From the NCBI RefSeq assembly GCF_031598375.1, contig NZ_CP123872.1, forward strand, positions 2,848,501 to 2,912,500: 64,000 nt of DNA. The letters run 5' to 3'. Of the stretch, positions 3,217 through 61,001 are shown piece after piece (positions within the stretch are counted from its first letter, which is position 1; each line of letters begins with the position of its first letter). The position numbers were made by a program, and so were the translations under genes. The notes beneath the pieces were generated by a model. The model was not told where the DNA came from, searched no databases, and saw only the letters and a program-made list of their open reading frames with translations. The stretch is from Temperatibacter marinus (lineage in GTDB: Bacteria; Pseudomonadota; Alphaproteobacteria; Sphingomonadales; Kordiimonadaceae).

Positions 3217-4482
3217 ATGAAAGAACGTATTTTATTGGTGGAAGACACCAAGTTTTTTGGCGAATTTATTTGTAGAAATATTACCCAAAAAATGAATTAT
3301 GAAGTTGACTGGGCAAAGTCTATGGAAGAAGCCATGACTTTTATTGCTCAGCATCAATCAAATTATATTATCGCACTTCTAGATCTTGGCCTTCCTGACG
3401 CCCCTAACGGGGAAATTGTGCCATATTGTATAGAAAATAATATCCCGTCCATCGTTTTCACAGGCAGTTATGACACAGACAAGCGCCGTTTGATGCTGTC
3501 ACATGGTATCATTGATTATGTGATGAAGGACAGTGCGATTAGTCTAGACTATGTAGTTAAACTGGTCGATAGACTTACAAGAAATACACATATTACTGCC
3601 CTTATTGCCGGTAGTGATCGTTCTATGCAACGTGCTGTGGCTGACAGTCTAGAATTAATGCAAATGCAGTGTGTTGTTGTGGATTCTGTCGAAGAAGGAA
3701 AAAGATGGGTCGAAAACAAAGAAAATCTTGGGCTTATTGTTTTGATGGATGAAATGAAAGACGGAGATGGTTTTGAGCTTTTAAAGGAGATCCGTCTAAG
3801 CCCAAAAAATAAATATATTCCAGTTTTAACACTACAATCAGAAGTGAATAGAATTGGAAACAGAAATATCAAATACGGGGCCAATGATTACATTGATTTT
3901 CCTTTTCGCCATACGGACTTTTTTACACGGGTCAATACAATCATGCAAATGCAAGATCAACTTAAGCAGCTGGACTATATGGCGCAGCATGATTTCTTAA
4001 CTGGCCTTTACAACAGAAGAGCCTTTTTCGAACGGGCCAAAGGACTGTTCGCTCAGGCAAGAAGAAAACAGATCACCGTTAAAATTGCCGCCTTTGATAT
4101 TGATCACTTTAAATCAGTGAATGATACTTATGGACATGATGTTGGGGATAGAGCCATCAAAGCCCTTTCAGATTGTCTTCTAGAGAATTCGAGGGAAACC
4201 GATTTAATTGCCCGATTTGGCGGTGAAGAATTCTGTGCGCTCTATACCGATATGGATGATGGCTATATGGTTTCCTATTTTGAGGAGTTGCGTAAAAAAG
4301 TTTCTGAACTTGAGCTTGAAATTGAAGGTGAAGAATTCCCTCTTAAATTTACAATCTCAATTGGGGTAAACACTCATTTCATTGAAGACATCAGTGAAAT
4401 GATCAACCATGCAGACAATGCCCTTTATGCATCCAAGGAAAATGGCCGCAATCAAGTCACTTATCATTCAGAAGACCCATAA
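3217..4482 (+). CDS. double-receiver GGDEF diguanylate cyclase (PleD-like)
   Basis: The 421-residue protein has two receiver domains and a C-terminal GGDEF domain. Receiver 1 (about 3-120) keeps the phospho-acceptor Asp56 in LLDLGLP. Receiver 2 (about 125-245) also keeps an Asp (LMDEMKDGDG), but its usual Lys-Pro is replaced (IDFPFR). The cyclase domain (about 255-415) has RFGGEEF, with the inhibitory RxxD site (RETD) exactly five residues upstream, so it should make c-di-GMP and be product-inhibited. It is a separate gene from the pleD at 24111-25493, whose second receiver lacks the Asp. It stands alone between a divergent Sel1 gene and a convergent basic protein. A role in surface or motility switching is inference. 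Confidence 0.85.
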   Translation: MKERILLVEDTKFFGEFICRNITQKMNYEVDWAKSMEEAMTFIAQHQSNYIIALLDLGLPDAPNGEIVPYCIENNIPSIVFTGSYDTDKRRLMLSHGIIDYVMKDSAISLDYVVKLVDRLTRNTHITALIAGSDRSMQRAVADSLELMQMQCVVVDSVEEGKRWVENKENLGLIVLMDEMKDGDGFELLKEIRLSPKNKYIPVLTLQSEVNRIGNRNIKYGANDYIDFPFRHTDFFTRVNTIMQMQDQLKQLDYMAQHDFLTGLYNRRAFFERAKGLFAQARRKQITVKIAAFDIDHFKSVNDTYGHDVGDRAIKALSDCLLENSRETDLIARFGGEEFCALYTDMDDGYMVSYFEELRKKVSELELEIEGEEFPLKFTISIGVNTHFIEDISEMINHADNALYASKENGRNQVTYHSEDP

Positions 4483-24110: not shown

Positions 24111-25493
24111 TTATTCTCTTCCGGCGACAACGACTCTATTTCGGCCAGCATTTTTAGCCTCGTAAAGCGCCTTATCGGCCACATCAATCAAGAGAGATGT
24201 ATCAAGGTCCGGTGTTGTTTCCATTGTTGCGACCCCAATGGAGACACGGATCGGTATAGCCCCTTCGGGTGCACTGCATACGAAATTTGTCTCCTCGACC
24301 TCCTGCCGTAATCTTTCCCCTACCATTTCACCCCACTCGCTGGTGGTATCGGGCATCATTACAACGAATTCCTCACCGCCGTATCGGGCGGCTAAATCTA
24401 CACCACGGATGTTCTGGGCTATTCTGTTGGCGAATTCTGCCAGAACCTCATCCCCAACCGCATGACCATAGGTATCATTCACTTTCTTAAAGTGGTCGAT
24501 ATCCATAATTAAGATTGTCAGAGGCTTTCCAAGACTTTTAGGCGATTTAATATGTGTATCTAAATGGCTAGTAAGATAATGTCGGTTAAAGAGGCTAGTT
24601 ACAGCATCAGTGGTCGCCATTTGCATGCTGATGAGGAAATTTTCATTGAGCTTGTCTGCATATCTCTTACGCCGCAGCTGAGTCTTCACCCGAGCAATAA
24701 ACTCCATTCGATCAACAGGACGGACAACATAGTCATTCACCCCAATATCTAATGCCTTGACCAAGGCGGGTGAATTGGGATCATCGACCATCACGAGAAG
24801 CGGCAACCGCCTAGTTTCATCAAACGTCCTCAGTTTAGAACAGATGCGAAGGCCATCGCACTCCCGCATGGTTAAAGAGATAATCAGCAAATCAAAGCTT
24901 TTCTCTCTGATCCGATCTGGCACGTCGTCATCCCCAAACATTTGGGTTACTTCACCATACCCATCAAGTGCCTTTGAAATACGGCTCATAACCCGCTCTT
25001 GCTCATCAACAATGAGAATACGGCCCTTTAATTTTTCATCATCAAATAAATCTCTAGCTTCTGTTGCGTCTAAGCCAAAGCTGCCGCCTGTAATCTCGCG
25101 CTTTCTCAGCTCATCCATCGTCATCTTCATCCGAACGAGGGATTTAACACGGGCAAAAAGTGCTATATCCTGAAGCGGTTTGGTCAGGAAATCATCTGCA
25201 CCAGCCTCTAATCCTTTCACACGATCAGAAGGTTGATCAAGCGCGGTCACCATGACCACAGGAATGTGCATGGTGTTGGGATCTGATTTAATTTTCTTAC
25301 AGACTTCAAAACCATCCATGCCAGGCATCATTACATCTAAAAGAACGATATCAGGGTGTTCCCGACCAATGATTTCTAAGGCTTCCATACCTGAGTATGC
25401 TGTCAGGACGTCAAAATACTCACTGGCTAGCTTAGCTTCTAGCAGTTTAACGTTCGGTGCTACATCATCGACAACTAAAACCCGCGCAGTCAT
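24111..25493 (-). CDS. pleD: diguanylate cyclase response regulator PleD
   Basis: The 460-residue protein is a classic PleD. Receiver 1 has VLVVDDVAPN and phospho-acceptor Asp53 (VLLDVMMPGMDG). Receiver 2 (about 155-275) lacks the Asp (IISLTMRECDG), as in Caulobacter PleD, where it serves as a dimerisation adaptor. The GGDEF domain (about 295-455) has ARYGGEEF with the RxxD inhibitory site (RGVD) five residues before it. Phosphorylation by DivJ/PleC-type kinases is expected to drive dimerisation and c-di-GMP synthesis for the swarmer-to-stalked type transition. divK lies 53 bases upstream in the same direction, so the two are probably one operon. Confidence 0.96.
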   Translation of the reverse strand: MTARVLVVDDVAPNVKLLEAKLASEYFDVLTAYSGMEALEIIGREHPDIVLLDVMMPGMDGFEVCKKIKSDPNTMHIPVVMVTALDQPSDRVKGLEAGADDFLTKPLQDIALFARVKSLVRMKMTMDELRKREITGGSFGLDATEARDLFDDEKLKGRILIVDEQERVMSRISKALDGYGEVTQMFGDDDVPDRIREKSFDLLIISLTMRECDGLRICSKLRTFDETRRLPLLVMVDDPNSPALVKALDIGVNDYVVRPVDRMEFIARVKTQLRRKRYADKLNENFLISMQMATTDAVTSLFNRHYLTSHLDTHIKSPKSLGKPLTILIMDIDHFKKVNDTYGHAVGDEVLAEFANRIAQNIRGVDLAARYGGEEFVVMMPDTTSEWGEMVGERLRQEVEETNFVCSAPEGAIPIRVSIGVATMETTPDLDTSLLIDVADKALYEAKNAGRNRVVVAGRE

Positions 25494-27803: not shown

Positions 27804-28523
27804 ATGAACGAAGCTTTGTTTTTAGAAGAAGATCAGAAAGTTGCTATTAATCCCTATGTAAGTGGGCTTGCTAGCCAGCTTATGAAAACGGCAGCTCGTG
27901 CAGAAATGAAGTTTGACAGCACAGGTTGGCAACTGATTTCAGAAGTTCTTAGTTATGCCGCAGCTGCTGAGCAACGCATGTCAGAACAACGCGATAGAAT
28001 TTCATATCTTGAAAATCTCTCTATTACCGATGAATTGACGGGCATCACTAATCGCAGAGGGTTGCGTCGTTTTTTAGGTACCACTCTCGCCAGCGTTAAT
28101 CGCCATAAAGAAGCCGGTGTCCTTGGCTTCATTGATTTAGATGGTTTTAAACAAATCAATGACACTTATGGTCATTTGGCAGGAGATACAATTCTTCGCC
28201 ATGTTTCTCATATTCTAAAAAATGCCATTCGACCGACTGATGAAGTTTCCAGAATTTCAGGTGATGAATTTGCCATTGTCCTCACACGCTGTACTTCTGA
28301 GGAGGGCGTAGAGAGACTCACACAAATTCAAACATTGATTAATTCTTCAACCATAAACTTTGGTGGCATAGATATTCCAATTGAATGCAGCATAGGCCAT
28401 CATCCTTTTGCGCAAGGAACTGATCCAAGCAAATTGATCGAACAAGCAGATCTTTCTATGTATAAGAATAAAAGCGCTAGAAAAGCTGAGAAGCAGGCCA
28501 AAGCTCTGGAGCAGGCAATTTAA
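27804..28523 (+). CDS. GGDEF-domain diguanylate cyclase (SGDEF variant)
   Basis: The 239-residue protein has a helical N-terminus of about 70 residues with no recognised sensor domain, then a GGDEF domain (about 75-230). The signature reads SRISGDEFAIVL, with Ser in place of the first Gly, a change seen in some active cyclases. RPTD, five residues upstream, is an intact RxxD inhibitory site. FIDLDGFKQINDTYGHLAGD supplies the metal-binding Asp. No membrane segment or receiver is present, so it is likely a cytosolic cyclase, perhaps regulated by a partner binding the N-terminus. TAGGAGA upstream supports the start. Confidence 0.85.
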   Translation: MNEALFLEEDQKVAINPYVSGLASQLMKTAARAEMKFDSTGWQLISEVLSYAAAAEQRMSEQRDRISYLENLSITDELTGITNRRGLRRFLGTTLASVNRHKEAGVLGFIDLDGFKQINDTYGHLAGDTILRHVSHILKNAIRPTDEVSRISGDEFAIVLTRCTSEEGVERLTQIQTLINSSTINFGGIDIPIECSIGHHPFAQGTDPSKLIEQADLSMYKNKSARKAEKQAKALEQAI

Positions 28524-31043: not shown

Positions 31044-32564
31044 TTAATCCGTATAAGGGTCCCTCGAGAGATAGATTTCAATGCCAGCTTCCAAAGCTTG
31101 GCGTTTCCACTTTTCATCTTCAATGTTTTCAAGCACAACCCACACAGATTTGCTCTGCCAAACTTTTACCAATTGTGTGATTAAGTCTTTTCCATCAAAA
31201 TGGCTGATCAGTTTTTTAAGCAAAGAAGCAGGCATCTCAATCACCCCCTCTTTTAAGAGAGGCGCTAATTCCTCATCCGTAACCGCATCACCAAAACGGT
31301 CCGTCCATAATAGGATCCCTTTTTTACGAATCCTTTTAATTGTCTGCCAATGAGGGCCTCCCCGTTTAATAGGTGGCACTCCCATAATACGCAGCCCAAT
31401 TTGGGAAGGCATAATTAAATATTTTTCCAGCAGATCATTTAAGCGCTCATGAAAATCAGGTACCAACAAGCAAGATCGGCAAAGATCATAAAATATTTTA
31501 TCCTGAGATGAATCCTTTTGAACAGCAAGTTGTCTAAGGACTTCTTCAATCTGCTTCAAGTCATGTTCAAGAGCTAAATCAGCATGATCCACAAGATTTA
31601 TAAGTTCATCAGGTCGACGGAAATGGCCGTCTATATCTACTTTCCCCTCTAGAAGAAATGCAAATTTCTGTCCAGCCACTGCATAAGAGGCCTGACGCTT
31701 TCCTATTCTGTAGCCATAGGCATTAAGTGCGGCTTTAATTAAATTAACATGATGTTCAATACCCGACACCACTTCAGTGATTGACCGTGCGTCCGCCATA
31801 TCATCAATATGCCCAGAAAACGCAAATGTAGCCTGCGATAGCGCCTTTTGCATTTGATCTGCAGGCAAGGTAGGATCATCGATCGCCACAGTTCGTGACT
31901 TTACACCTAATTCTTCAAGAGATAAGCCCAGGCTTTTCGCGGCATTTTCAACTTCCTCATGAAAAAGCTCTTCATGAAAATCCCCTCCCGTCAGCAAGCT
32001 ATAGGTGGCCTCATCAACTTGACCAATTCGTCCGCCAATCGCTTGATTTTTAAGTTCTTCTTCAACCGTATCTCTGACCTTCTCGCGTTGATCTGGCGAA
32101 AGCCCTGCCCCTTCTCTCAATCCTGAGACCTGAATCATAGCCATATCTAAGTCCCCTTCATAAGGGCTCTCTAAAACAGCCTGTACAAAGTCAAAAAAGG
32201 CGTAAATCTCTTGAGCTGGAATATGCTCAGCACTAGGTGTGGGCTGACCTGATCCTTTAGCGACTTTAAAAAACTCGAAAAGCCATGATCCGTCATCATT
32301 GCTTGTAATCTGCATATCAAAATTAATATAGCCACCAGCATGATAGCGAAGAGGTACTTTTGGGAAGACAACATGGTCCAATTTACGCTCTGCAGCTAAG
32401 AGCTTTTGCAGTCGACTGTGAGCGTCAGGGGGAAATAAAAATTCAACGGGCTGCCTGAAAAGGTCATACTCTTCCCAACCCAAAATCTTAGAGAGCCTTC
32501 CATCTGAAGGGTCCAGTAAATGCGTTTCAGTAACGCTGATTGAAAATTCACTGCTATGAGGCAT
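31044..32564 (-). CDS. PAS-GGDEF-EAL protein with all catalytic motifs degraded
   Basis: The 506-residue protein has the shape of a PAS (about 1-120), GGDEF (about 130-270) and EAL (about 300-506) protein, but the signatures are lost. The GGDEF position reads GRIGQVDEATYSLL; the EAL position is near FAFLLEGKVDIDG; the DDFG motif reads TDRFGDA; and the final glutamate-containing VExVE helix is reduced to VVLENIEDEKWK. Helix spacing and the RRPDELINLVDHADL and FHERLNDLLEKYL blocks still support the fold. It should neither make nor cleave c-di-GMP; a binding or scaffolding role is inferred. Its stop is five bases from that of the convergent COG3146 gene. The start ATG 32564 has no strong ribosome-binding site. 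Confidence 0.6.
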   Translation of the reverse strand: MPHSSEFSISVTETHLLDPSDGRLSKILGWEEYDLFRQPVEFLFPPDAHSRLQKLLAAERKLDHVVFPKVPLRYHAGGYINFDMQITSNDDGSWLFEFFKVAKGSGQPTPSAEHIPAQEIYAFFDFVQAVLESPYEGDLDMAMIQVSGLREGAGLSPDQREKVRDTVEEELKNQAIGGRIGQVDEATYSLLTGGDFHEELFHEEVENAAKSLGLSLEELGVKSRTVAIDDPTLPADQMQKALSQATFAFSGHIDDMADARSITEVVSGIEHHVNLIKAALNAYGYRIGKRQASYAVAGQKFAFLLEGKVDIDGHFRRPDELINLVDHADLALEHDLKQIEEVLRQLAVQKDSSQDKIFYDLCRSCLLVPDFHERLNDLLEKYLIMPSQIGLRIMGVPPIKRGGPHWQTIKRIRKKGILLWTDRFGDAVTDEELAPLLKEGVIEMPASLLKKLISHFDGKDLITQLVKVWQSKSVWVVLENIEDEKWKRQALEAGIEIYLSRDPYTD

Positions 32565-46942: not shown

Positions 46943-48526
46943 CTAGCCTGCGGCACGGGCGCGTGCAGGTGTCAAATTCGGGGAAGGCTTTCCGTAATAA
47001 TATCCTTGGCCGTAGTTCACACCGATCTTGGTGAGCAAATCAGCATGTTCTTTAGTTTCCACCCATTCTGCAACAGTTTCTACACCGATCTGTTGACACA
47101 GTGTCGCCATTGACATCAAGAAGGCCCGTGTGGTCTTGTCCTTCACTGCATCTCTGACATATTCGCCGTCAATCTTAACGCCGTCCACGACCAATTGCTT
47201 AAGGTATTGGAAGCCAGATGCCCCCGCCCCAAAATCATCAAGATAGACACGGAAACCAAGGGCGCGAATTTTTTCAAGAACCTTGTTCAAACCCTCTAGG
47301 TCAGTGATTTTTGCAGATTCAGTGACTTCAAGAGACAAGTTACGGGCAAGAGAAGGTGCATTTTTTAATTCTTCGACCAAATTATCTAGGAAAGCTGCAT
47401 TGGATAGAGATTTGCCTGATAAGTTAACGGCAATCTTAGGTGCTGAGGCCATTCCCATCTTTGGTTTTATGAGGCCAATAGCTCGTTTTAAAATCGCATG
47501 GTCAAAATCCATAATCAATCCCACATCTTCTGCGAAACAAATCATCTCAAATTGATTGACATTAACCCCCTTGAGATCAAACCGACACAAGGCTTCGAAA
47601 TGATGTGTTGTGCCACTCTGTAGGGAAACAATTGGCTGATAAACAAAATTAAAGTCACCAGCATTCAGCATATCTCTGAATTTTGTTACTTTTGTTGTCG
47701 TTTCCTGAATTAAGTCTGATCCTTCAGATTTAAATGTCTGCATATCAAAATTTTGATTGTCTTCCGCAAATTGTTGCAAGGAAAATACCAAAGCTTTCAT
47801 GCCGTCTTCATCGCCCTCTTCTGAGATTTTTGAAGCATCGATAGACGCAGAATTTAAATTAACACCTGTGGCTTTGCTCAGATTATCAGAGATTAATTTA
47901 TCAGATTCACCTGACTCGCCCTTTTCATGAACAAGAGCAAATTTACTTTCCGTTAGTTTTGCAGCAGAGTTCCCGCCAACCGAGAAGGATTTTAAGAATT
48001 TTTCGACTTCCTTCTGTTTTCCTGACGTAAGCTCGTTAATGTCGCTTTCTAGAACTGTCACCATTAAATTTTCTTCAGTTCCGGCCGTTTTCTGAAGTAA
48101 TTTATCTAAGCGATTAAAAAATTTATCTTTTCGTTCATTGTCTGTCAGTTCGTCTTCTTCATCTTCATCAAGGCCAAGACGGTAAGGATACGAGAGCGCA
48201 AGATAGGTAATGTCTGCATACATAGGTAAGCGGCCAGCAAACATGGCAAATTCTTTTCTATTATCAGGATCAAGTCCGCAAGAAATCATGATAGGACCAA
48301 TTCGAGATGCTTTATCAAGCCCTGCCATCGTCAAATCAAACATGGACATATCTTGCTCAGACACTAACGCCGAAAGCGGTTTGCCCATCACGACGCTGTC
48401 GTCTTCACTTGCAAGGATACTGATAGCCCCGTCAGCATTCAAGACATTTAATTTTGTATCCACTTCCAGAAGGACATCCCCCACAGTGAAGGCAAATCCT
48501 AAAAATCTATCTGGCACTTTTGACAT
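46943..48526 (-). CDS. PAS-degenerate GGDEF-EAL c-di-GMP phosphodiesterase
   Basis: The 527-residue protein has a PAS-like N-terminus (about 10-110), a GGDEF-like domain whose motif has decayed (AAKLTESKFALVH, about 195-208), and an EAL domain (about 285-520). The EAL domain keeps the metal and catalytic residues: FEALCRF, IAVNLSGKSL, LEVTES, YLDDFGAG, KIDGEY and WVET. It is therefore expected to hydrolyse c-di-GMP to pGpG. The same domain order occurs in the decayed protein at 31044-32564. It faces mfd, 29 bases apart. No membrane segment is visible, so it is probably cytosolic. Confidence 0.85.
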   Translation of the reverse strand: MSKVPDRFLGFAFTVGDVLLEVDTKLNVLNADGAISILASEDDSVVMGKPLSALVSEQDMSMFDLTMAGLDKASRIGPIMISCGLDPDNRKEFAMFAGRLPMYADITYLALSYPYRLGLDEDEEDELTDNERKDKFFNRLDKLLQKTAGTEENLMVTVLESDINELTSGKQKEVEKFLKSFSVGGNSAAKLTESKFALVHEKGESGESDKLISDNLSKATGVNLNSASIDASKISEEGDEDGMKALVFSLQQFAEDNQNFDMQTFKSEGSDLIQETTTKVTKFRDMLNAGDFNFVYQPIVSLQSGTTHHFEALCRFDLKGVNVNQFEMICFAEDVGLIMDFDHAILKRAIGLIKPKMGMASAPKIAVNLSGKSLSNAAFLDNLVEELKNAPSLARNLSLEVTESAKITDLEGLNKVLEKIRALGFRVYLDDFGAGASGFQYLKQLVVDGVKIDGEYVRDAVKDKTTRAFLMSMATLCQQIGVETVAEWVETKEHADLLTKIGVNYGQGYYYGKPSPNLTPARARAAG

Positions 48527-59037: not shown

Positions 59038-59865
59038 ATGGCGTTTTCAATAAACACCAATAAAGGTGCGTTGTTTGCACTTCAGCAACTGAATGCAACA
59101 AATGCAAAATTGGAATCAACACAAACACAAGTGAACACAGGTAAAAAAGTGGCCTCATCTAAAGACAACGCAGCAGTATTTGCTATTGCTCAGAAGCTTC
59201 GCTCTGACATATCAGGCTTGAATGCTGCAAAATCGTCATTAGATCGGGCTTTGTCAACAATTGATGTAGCCATCGCTGCAGGAGAAGCTGTTTCTGATCT
59301 TTTAGTTGAGATGAAAGAAAAAGCCGTTTCTGCGAAAGATGTTGGTCTAGATAGCACAAGTAGAGCATCACTCAATGATGACTTTACGCAGCTACGTGAT
59401 CAAATTTCATCTATTGTTGATAACGCTGAATTCAATGGCATCAATGCCGTTAAATCAGGTGGAGAAGATATTGTCGCTATTACAAATGATACTGGCGCCA
59501 ATACAATCACTATCGCAGCGCAAAACTTATCTTTAGGATCTAGTGTTGTAAACATCTCGTCATCAGATACGATCTCCACATCTACTAGCGCAACAACGAC
59601 AGTTACAAAACTTGAGTCTGCGATTACGGACGTGAACTCCTCACTCTCAAAATTGGGTGCAGGATCAAAACGTCTTGATCTGCAAAAAGCTTTTGTTGGC
59701 AAACTGTCAGATGCGATTGAAGTGGGTATCGGTAATTTGGTAGATGCTGATATGGCGAAAACAAGCGCTATGCTCCAGTCGTTGCAGGTTAAGCAGCAGC
59801 TTGGGTTACAGGCTCTTGGCATTGCCAACTCGGCACCACAGGCGATTACGACCCTGTTCCAGTAA
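59038..59865 (+). CDS. flagellin (first of two)
   Basis: The 275-residue protein is a short flagellin with the two conserved ends that form the filament core: MAFSINTNKGALFALQQLN and KDNAAVFAIAQKLRSDI at the N-terminus; LVDADMAKTSAMLQSLQVKQQLGLQALGIAN near the C-terminus. The central variable region is short (about residues 150-190, Ser/Thr-rich). It is about four-fifths identical to the next gene product by eye over the conserved ends, so the two are recent paralogs. Export is by the flagellar type III path without a cleaved signal. GGGAGATT before the ATG supports the start. A UUCG-loop terminator follows. Confidence 0.95.
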   Translation: MAFSINTNKGALFALQQLNATNAKLESTQTQVNTGKKVASSKDNAAVFAIAQKLRSDISGLNAAKSSLDRALSTIDVAIAAGEAVSDLLVEMKEKAVSAKDVGLDSTSRASLNDDFTQLRDQISSIVDNAEFNGINAVKSGGEDIVAITNDTGANTITIAAQNLSLGSSVVNISSSDTISTSTSATTTVTKLESAITDVNSSLSKLGAGSKRLDLQKAFVGKLSDAIEVGIGNLVDADMAKTSAMLQSLQVKQQLGLQALGIANSAPQAITTLFQ

Positions 59866-59884
59866 CCTTTATCCAACCAATATC

Positions 59885-59909
59885 AGGCGGGTTTCGACCC
59901 GCCTTTTTT
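59885..59909 (+). terminator. UUCG-loop terminator of flagellin 1
   Basis: An 8-bp stem (59885-59892 with 59897-59904), TTCG loop and T run. Its stem is the same GC-rich sequence as in the terminator at 2692. Confidence 0.85.
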
Positions 59910-60073
59910 ATTGCTCCCCACTAGGCAATATATGCCCCTGCCAGAAAAATAGGTAATTTTTACCCACTCAAACCCTTGATAGGCTAGGCATTATTTACCC
60001 CTTCTCATTATTCATACTAGAGAGGGTTCAAATTTTATTTATAAATATCAGTATGTTAGATAACACATAAAAG

Positions 60074-60082
60074 TTATCCACA
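60074..60082 (+). promoter_or_regulatory. perfect DnaA-box sequence before the flagellin 2 promoter
   Basis: TTATCCACA, the strict DnaA 9-mer, ends five bases before the -24 element of the flagellin 2 promoter. About one such 9-mer is expected by chance in a window of this size, so its function is unproven. Confidence 0.35.
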
Positions 60083-60086
60083 GCAA

Positions 60087-60101
60087 TGGCACACTAATTG
60101 C
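60087..60101 (+). promoter_or_regulatory. sigma-54 promoter of flagellin 2
   Basis: TGGCAC-ACTAA-TTGC, with GG and GC ten bases apart, an exact consensus, 73 bases before the ATG at 60174. Confidence 0.85.
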
Positions 60102-60113
60102 AAAGTTACAACC

Positions 60114-60166
60114 GAGACAAAAAGTCTCAAGAGGCAAAATGCCTTGTAAATAACTCCAAAAAGGAG
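60114..60166 (+). promoter_or_regulatory. three tandem A-loop hairpins in the flagellin 2 leader
   Basis: GAGAC/GTCTC (60114-60128), AGGC/GCCT (60132-60144) and CTCC/GGAG (60154-60166) each close a five-base A-rich loop. The 3' arm of the last includes the ribosome-binding GGAG, so it could mask translation initiation. The first starts at the expected 5' end of the sigma-54 transcript. Confidence 0.6.
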
Positions 60167-60173
60167 AGCTAAA

Positions 60174-61001
60174 ATGGCTTTTTCGGTAAATACAAACGCA
60201 GGTGCGTTCTTAGCCCTGCAAAATTTGAACAAAACTAGTAGTGGCCTTGAAACCACTCAATCTCGCATTAACACTGGTGAAAAAGTATCCAGTTCAAAAG
60301 ACAATGCTGCTGTCTTCGCTATCGCTCAGAAATTGCGTAGTGATGTTGCTGGCCTTGGCGCTGTACAAGGGTCACTTGACCGTGCTCTTTCTACAGTAGA
60401 CGTTGCGATTGCTGCTGGTGAAGCAGTGTCCGACCTACTGATTGAAATGAAAGAGAAAGCTGTATCTGCGAAAGACACTGGCCTGGACAGTACAAGCCGT
60501 GCATCTTTGAACGATGACTTCACTCAGCTTCGTGATCAGATTACATCGATTGTCAGTAACGCTGAATTTAACGGTACAAACGCCGTGAAAAACAGCGGTG
60601 ACTCGATCGTTGCGATTACAGATGACACAGGGTCATCTGCTATTACAATTGCTGCAGAGGATTTCTCTCTTGCCGGCTCTAAAGTAAATATCGCTGCAAC
60701 TGACACAATTTCTACTCAGACAAAAGCGTCTTCAGCTGTAACCAAGCTTGAATCTTCTATTACAGATGTGAACACAGCCCTTTCTAAATTGGGTGCGGGT
60801 TCAAACCGTCTGTCTCTACAGAAAGATTTCACAACCAAGCTTTCTGATGCGATCGAAGTTGGTATCGGTAACTTAGTAGATGCCGATCTCGCTAAAGAAT
60901 CAGCGAACTTGCAGGCATTGCAGGTGAAGCAGCAGTTGGGCCTACAGGCTCTATCTATTGCGAATCAGGCTCCTTCTACAGTACTTGGTCTATTCCGATA
61001 A
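60174..61001 (+). CDS. flagellin (second of two)
   Basis: The 275-residue product has the same architecture as its upstream paralog: MAFSVNTNAGAFLALQNLN, KDNAAVFAIAQKLRSDV, GLDSTSRASLNDDFTQLRDQI and LQVKQQLGLQALSIANQAP. Differences cluster in the central segment and at the ends. Own sigma-54 promoter and own terminator, so the two flagellins can be expressed at different levels. AAGGAGA before the ATG supports the start. Which one is the major filament protein is not shown by the sequence. Confidence 0.95.
   Translation: MAFSVNTNAGAFLALQNLNKTSSGLETTQSRINTGEKVSSSKDNAAVFAIAQKLRSDVAGLGAVQGSLDRALSTVDVAIAAGEAVSDLLIEMKEKAVSAKDTGLDSTSRASLNDDFTQLRDQITSIVSNAEFNGTNAVKNSGDSIVAITDDTGSSAITIAAEDFSLAGSKVNIAATDTISTQTKASSAVTKLESSITDVNTALSKLGAGSNRLSLQKDFTTKLSDAIEVGIGNLVDADLAKESANLQALQVKQQLGLQALSIANQAPSTVLGLFR

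Follow-up and report, generated by a model that had tools for sequence, protein, structure and literature searches.

What can an EAL barrel do without its messenger? The question is raised by a gene of Temperatibacter marinus at 31044..32564 on the minus strand of the window, by which we mean the whole 64-kb stretch of DNA analysed, taken from a host genome (G000) of 3.18 Mb in a single contig. Judged from its ORF, from full-length orthologs and from an AF2 model, the gene starts at ATG and codes for a protein of 506 aa plus stop in which a PAS-like region is followed by degenerate GGDEF and EAL domains (PAS-dGGDEF-dEAL). A first-pass annotation, made from the letters, had noted this frame; its 506 codons are indeed uninterrupted, but they belong to the minus strand; read on the plus strand, the interval contains 26 stops. 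A gene for a NAD-binding dehydrogenase, likewise on the minus strand, lies 105 bases ahead of it, and its end abuts a FemAB-like gene of the opposite strand. Promoter- and terminator-like sites for the gene are no more frequent than expected by chance. The protein comes near no cut-off in NCBIfam, and by eye it lacks a transmembrane segment and looks soluble. A library search for literature joining 'Kordiimonas' with 'EAL domain' found no paper. The locus offers a clean natural case, as throughout an orthologous family the active site has gone beyond erosion and carries fixed, charge-reversed residues instead; many of these genomes also hold paralogs with intact motifs, which serve as controls.

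Three domains are predicted along the chain and, like the gene, read from the minus strand. At the N-terminus, a PAS-like domain (about residues 6–101, 32262..32549) is drawn from the secondary structure of the model and a full-length structural match to PA0861, the degenerate GGDEF domain (about residues 121–250, 31815..32204) from the AF2 model, structural matches and profile matches to paralogs spanning the region, and the degenerate EAL domain (about residues 262–506, 31047..31781) from Pfam and from comparison with solved EAL domains (VIA-align, Z 18–21, rmsd 3.1–4.1). Pfam EAL covers residues 314–496 at 44.9 bits against a cut-off of 31.3, which places the protein in the EAL-domain superfamily, and at E up to 1 it matches all 17 members of the family described below. 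Pfam PAS and GGDEF give no match to the protein at E up to 1, and no single Pfam PAS model matches more than 2/17 family members, this copy never among them. The AF2 model, built from 17 sequences, has a mean pLDDT of 80 and a pTM of 0.69. Its top Foldseek match is the PAS-GGDEF-EAL protein PA0861 (5xgb, E 3.3e-20, 538 columns, 11% identity), and VIA-align to PA0861 5xge pairs residues 3–505 at Z 20.6 with an rmsd of 9.6 over 446 aligned residues, which means that the domain arrangement differs from that of PA0861 or is poorly modelled. The first-pass annotation had traced three c-di-GMP domains and proposed a structure search as the check; GGDEF/EAL similarity was found with PA0861 first, and this near full-length match supports a three-domain PAS-GGDEF-EAL fold, the PAS part least directly.

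The former catalytic residues were mapped through 12 alignments to paralogs with intact EAL motifs and are given in RocR numbering, with presumed roles in the EAL site for K316, E355 and Q372. The roles of most other residues (metal, substrate) follow PMC7911125. The former metal ligand E265 has become R392 (31389..31391) in 12/12 alignments, with R in 17/17 family members. D295 is retained as D422 and D296 is replaced by R423, each in 12/12 alignments and 17/17 members, so that the former DDFG reads DRFG (D422-R423, 31296..31301), exactly as first annotated. K316 has become E443 (31236..31238; 12/12 alignments, E in 17/17), and the substrate-binding Q161 has become R290 (31695..31697; 11/12 alignments, R in 17/17). 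N233 corresponds to D360 in this copy (12/12 alignments), and the family has E in 14/17, D in 2/17 and G in 1/17 at this position. The mapping of E175 and R179 is ambiguous, the 12 alignments splitting 7, 4 and 1 between LxExK at 304–308, AxLxE at 302–306 and a gap; the most likely site of the lost ExLxR is therefore L304-K308 (LLEGK, 31641..31655), where L304 and K308 are invariant in 17/17. The family reads LxQxK or AxLxQ here, with E for Q in 2/17 including this copy. The ExLxR motif is absent from the alignment of all 17 members, and no member has E at the E175 position in those alignments that place the site.

The AExxE loop is where the copy in the window departs from its relatives. The claim that the VExVE glutamates are gone does not hold for this copy, which reads VLENIE and has both E479 and E482 (ENIE, 31119..31130), and applies to most of its orthologs: at E352, A, V or C stands in 16/17 and E solely in this copy (1/17), and E355 is E in 4/17. 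Q372 falls in a gap, or on V or L, for most family rows. Canonical letters are thus kept at three positions in this copy (D422, E479, E482) and at one across the family, and none of the 17 sequences has the full set of residues of an active EAL phosphodiesterase (E175, N233, E265, D295, D296, K316, E352). The GGDEF-equivalent position reads DEATY (residues 184–188, 32001..32015) and, across the 17 sequences, D-[ED]-A-[STA]-Y with D, A and Y invariant, which is not the GG(D/E)EF of an active diguanylate cyclase. The annotated loss of GGDEF ('GQVDEA') is thereby borne out, and alignment of the GGDEF and EAL positions supports the claim that both catalytic motifs have been lost. From these residues we infer that the protein neither makes nor hydrolyses c-di-GMP. 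By the same alignments, the clade has lost the two-metal EAL site, where invariant replacements have inverted the charges (E to R, D to R, K to E). R392, R423 and E443, which no member lacks, may form salt bridges that replace the metals, or a new anion site.

An ortholog search of 98 genomes, the host included, gave a match at E 1e-3 in 24. Full-length orthologs (E 1e-83 or better, 33–42% identity) are present in 16 of the 97 other genomes, all of the same order, and the rest are weak partial EAL matches. An order-wide profile scan of 396 genomes returned the same 17 genomes, 14 of the 29 in the host's own family, two in a second family (f7) and one in a third (f2), and in class-wide (385) and phylum-wide (398) samples matches were confined to one and three own-family genomes, respectively; few candidates per genome were scored in these three scans. 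By these results the orthologous family is known here from one order and is patchy within it. The first-pass annotation had argued that the loss, if shared by close relatives, would mark a distinct signalling family; the ortholog search and motif-site check found it common to 17/17, which by that reasoning makes the family a distinct one. The opposite outcome, orthologs that keep the motifs while this copy decays, was not seen, as no ortholog keeps the EAL site (17/17). Degenerate EAL proteins are a known kind, and the orthologs of 31044-32564 are a new family of that kind: a known type of event, the loss of catalysis by an EAL domain, has here had a consistent outcome, a charge inversion fixed across an order-restricted family.

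Several signs suggest that this family is under selection. In the 17-sequence alignment 66 of 506 columns are invariant, and among the HMM-mapped former active-site columns 4/7 are (hypergeometric p 0.007). Without the retained D422 this becomes 3/6 and p weakens to 0.03; with less certain columns added it becomes 6/10 with p 0.0005, a value that is partly circular because the mapping of L304 and K308 was helped by the conservation of those residues. Among the 14 most similar of 136 ortholog pairs, the one unsaturated species pair (L016/L017) has dN 0.006 and dS 0.107, a ratio of 0.057; together with L008/L010 (0.061 at dS 1.4) and L005/L007 (0.028 at dS 3.0, which is saturated) it makes up the three most similar pairs of all. 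The copy in the window is in none of these three pairs and has no close relative in the set. A TAG inside L016/L017 reflects a match overrunning the true stop, and the frames are open. The annotated idea that selection still acts thus finds signs in the family, in the fixed replacements and in a dN/dS from a pair that excludes this copy. The helical blocks cited for it fared unequally: RRPDELINLVDHADL is well conserved, and FHERLNDLLEKYL is near-invariant only at F and one L.

The host genome has 11 EAL and 12 GGDEF domain matches. Five of these 23 lie inside the window, which makes up 2% of the genome (GGDEF at 3982-4455, 24135-24617 and 28023-28484, EAL at 31077-31625 and 46985-47683), and a further GGDEF match ends less than 1 kb before its start, so that the window is a local concentration of c-di-GMP genes. 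A tandem pair of similar flagellin genes lies near its end (59038-61001; G000:C1:2907550, 2908686), and the genome encodes one PilZ protein, from which nothing specific follows. The second EAL gene of the window, at 46943..48526 on the minus strand, codes for a dGGDEF-EAL paralog of 527 aa that served as comparator; a residue check found its EAL active site intact, and in several genomes orthologs of this paralog are located close to the degenerate gene. This protein, L047 (G000:C1:680869) and L048 (G000:C1:450663) resemble the query in having about 530 aa, a C-terminal EAL domain and no GGDEF motif, and differ from it in keeping ExLxR, DDFG, KID and the AE/GExxE glutamates, a set that the 31044-32564 clade lacks; in all, three EAL proteins of the host (L046, L047 and L048) come near the query in length and keep the EAL motifs but have no GGDEF motif. 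L047 also scores as Pfam GGDEF (24.6 bits, cut-off 23.8), which the query does not. Among the best 30 paralogs of the 46943-48526 type, 30/30 keep Q161, E175, R179 and the ExLxR motif, N233, E265, D295, D296, K316, E352 and Q372, 29/30 keep E355, and 0/30 have a GGDEF motif at the aligned position. Loss of the cyclase motif, first reported as if peculiar to this protein, is thus no special trait; as it extends to the broader paralog group, loss of the EAL site is what marks the 31044-32564 family.

The family profile matches L047 best (2.2e-17) and other host EAL proteins at 3.3e-9 or weaker, and a profile–profile match to the 46943 clade spans 398 columns at query positions 8–437. The sequence of L043 is cut at the locus edge, and the EAL protein L049 was left out of the residue and profile comparisons since the longest frame at that locus is a different gene. 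In a tree of 31 rows, comprising the family, 12 of the 30 paralog rows and two other paralogs, the 17 members form one clade with support 100/100 and a very long stem; the branch of this copy (0.68) equals that of the G004 ortholog (0.68) and is not exceptional. The two other paralogs are placed unsurely because of long branches, and the stem is too long to give a timing, an exact sister or a sure parent group. These profile matches relate the protein over most of its length to PAS-dGGDEF-EAL phosphodiesterase-like proteins of the lineage that also lack the cyclase motif, and descent from soluble phosphodiesterases of this kind is the best reading of the comparison. Two further host proteins have altered EAL domains. 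L053 (G000:C1:1576815-1577366) is a second strongly degenerate one, with a 427-aa frame and 34.9 bits to EAL; it matches none of the canonical GGDEF/EAL motif patterns tried and is not clearly related to the family. In L051 (G000:C1:132614-133297) ExLxR and DDFG are altered and a membrane segment is seen by eye at the N-terminus, a layout reminiscent of TipF.

With moderate confidence, we hypothesize that 31044-32564 encodes a conserved PAS-regulated pseudoenzyme that has no c-di-GMP turnover, is probably independent of c-di-GMP altogether and acts by binding a putative partner, either a protein or a new ligand. The PAS-like N-terminal domain would sense a cue, which would be relayed through the dGGDEF/EAL hinge and alter the surface of the EAL domain, and the altered surface would bind or release a candidate partner protein. 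Salt bridges between the inverted charges could take over from the metals in holding the barrel. As for the partner, the linked paralog 46943-48526 is a candidate, though not an obligate one. Loss of ExLxR favours c-di-GMP independence, and c-di-GMP is probably not bound at the usual EAL site. Against this hypothesis stand the conserved basic residues, as c-di-GMP could bind in another pose despite the absence of ExLxR, and the E479/E482 pair kept by this copy; no conserved gene neighbour among the nine stretches compared points to a partner. If the hypothesis is true, a c-di-GMP-independent branch is added to a signalling superfamily.

Other explanations have to be weighed against partner binding. 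Simple decay, in which the motifs were lost because the gene no longer matters, would agree with the altered canonical motifs and with the patchy occurrence of the gene in 14/29 own-family genomes; given the same replacements fixed in 17/17 open frames, the 66 invariant columns and a dN/dS of about 0.06 in one pair, a pseudogene is judged extremely unlikely. The constraint on the former active site could also be read as function of a new sort, the EAL barrel having been rebuilt into an inverted-charge site (R290, R392 and R423 against E443) that would accept another ligand in place of c-di-GMP, such as a different nucleotide, a metabolite or a nucleic acid. Arginines fixed at formerly acidic or polar sites, a glutamate at the former lysine in 17/17 and an invariance of former active-site columns above that of the protein as a whole would suit such a receptor for an anion; the same residues could, however, be purely structural salt bridges, and the neighbourhood gives no clue to a ligand in nine stretches. 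We regard this reading as quite unlikely; if true, a receptor family with a new ligand would have grown from a c-di-GMP phosphodiesterase. In a further alternative, the protein is a regulatory subunit whose EAL domain pairs with a linked phosphodiesterase of the 46943-48526 type and tunes its activity. EAL domains commonly dimerise, and in 8 of the 11 genomes where the degenerate gene is accompanied by a clear paralog of this type (E below 1e-118) the two lie within about 65 kb, 14 kb apart in the host and adjacent on the same strand in G007. Yet they are 1.4 Mb apart in G020 and on different contigs in G024 and G025, only weaker paralog matches accompany the degenerate gene in G004, G028 and G042, and it occurs without a paralog match at E 1e-30 in G005, G034 and G040; in many genomes, e.g. 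G012–G018, the paralog is present and the degenerate gene has no ortholog. The linkage may also be leftover ancestry, an old tandem duplication being a possible source, and the genomes do not count as independent cases. The data do not support an obligate partnership, and we consider the regulatory subunit very unlikely.

Gene neighbourhoods were compared at a threshold of 30% identity over 60% of the longer protein. In nine stretches from eight genomes, eight with an ortholog and one with a paralog, no window gene recurs besides the two EAL genes; an operon clue to a partner was rejected accordingly, these two being all that the ortholog stretches share with the window. Among 13 named loci there is one further weak match to a window gene (L034, 26% over 270 aa), and other neighbours recur in subsets only, e.g. 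a Complex I 51K/molybdopterin oxidoreductase pair in G022 and G027. Elsewhere the 46943-type paralog is often found near genes for a PhoD-like phosphatase, an HlyD/ABC/FtsX-type exporter and a TetR protein (L107, L096, G009, G020, G022, G027), an arrangement that is absent from the 64-kb window; as neighbours of the paralog, these genes were set aside as a clue to 31044-32564.

The remaining alternative is an inactive receptor of the FimX or LapD type, which would still bind c-di-GMP in the EAL pocket and relay the signal. The domain order is similar: FimX (REC-PAS-dGGDEF-dEAL) has the order of the query after REC, with both domains degenerate and an EAL fold that aligns at Z 20.1 (3hv8), and LapD, also a degenerate GGDEF-EAL protein, scores highest in VIA-align (6pwk_A, Z 21.5, rmsd 10.2 over 364). 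R290, K308, R392 and R423, all basic and conserved, could contact phosphates. LapD is, however, a membrane protein controlling LapG, and no transmembrane segment is seen by eye in the query. According to PMC10333796, degenerate EAL receptors such as FimX and LapD bind c-di-GMP through ExLxR, both being listed with the motif and FimX as binding c-di-GMP, whereas the query family has LxQxK or AxLxQ instead and lacks ExLxR in 17/17. The type IVa pilus protein PilM has no match in the host at E 1e-5. Weak PilM matches occur in 10 of 41 genomes, both with the degenerate gene (G002, G005, G008, G009) and without it (G012, G014, G015, G019, G023, G036), and a FimX-like pilus role was rejected. Flagellin is present in 41/41 genomes, which makes flagellar co-occurrence uninformative. 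Taken together, a c-di-GMP receptor of this type appears doubtful.

Partner binding can also be set beside other known systems. CsrD resembles the query as a GGDEF-EAL protein without catalysis, and 1/17 family members matches the CsrD model weakly (1.1e-4). CsrA has no match in the host at E 0.01, in a search that was positive in 3/14 control genomes, so that the Csr pathway served by CsrD appears to be absent, and a CsrD-like role was rejected for want of CsrA. The lack of both CsrA and PilM matches in the host is evidence against its having copies of the CsrD or FimX pathway. PA0861 (RbdA), a PAS-GGDEF-EAL protein, is the first Foldseek match along the whole chain, at about 11% identity; by their titles its structures were solved with GTP and c-di-GMP, and neither site keeps its motifs in the query. 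A parallel to the proposed way of working, protein contact, is given by EAL proteins that have left c-di-GMP behind: as reported in PMC10333796, YdiV and STM1697 show neither hydrolysis nor binding of c-di-GMP and target transcription factors, and PMC3989770 reports the same for the anti-repressor YcgF. YdiV and STM1697 are EAL-only and YcgF is a BLUF-EAL protein, whereas 31044-32564 adds PAS-like and dGGDEF regions. Its motif losses agree with the c-di-GMP-independent EAL type and, by sequence, the protein falls on the YdiV/YcgF side.
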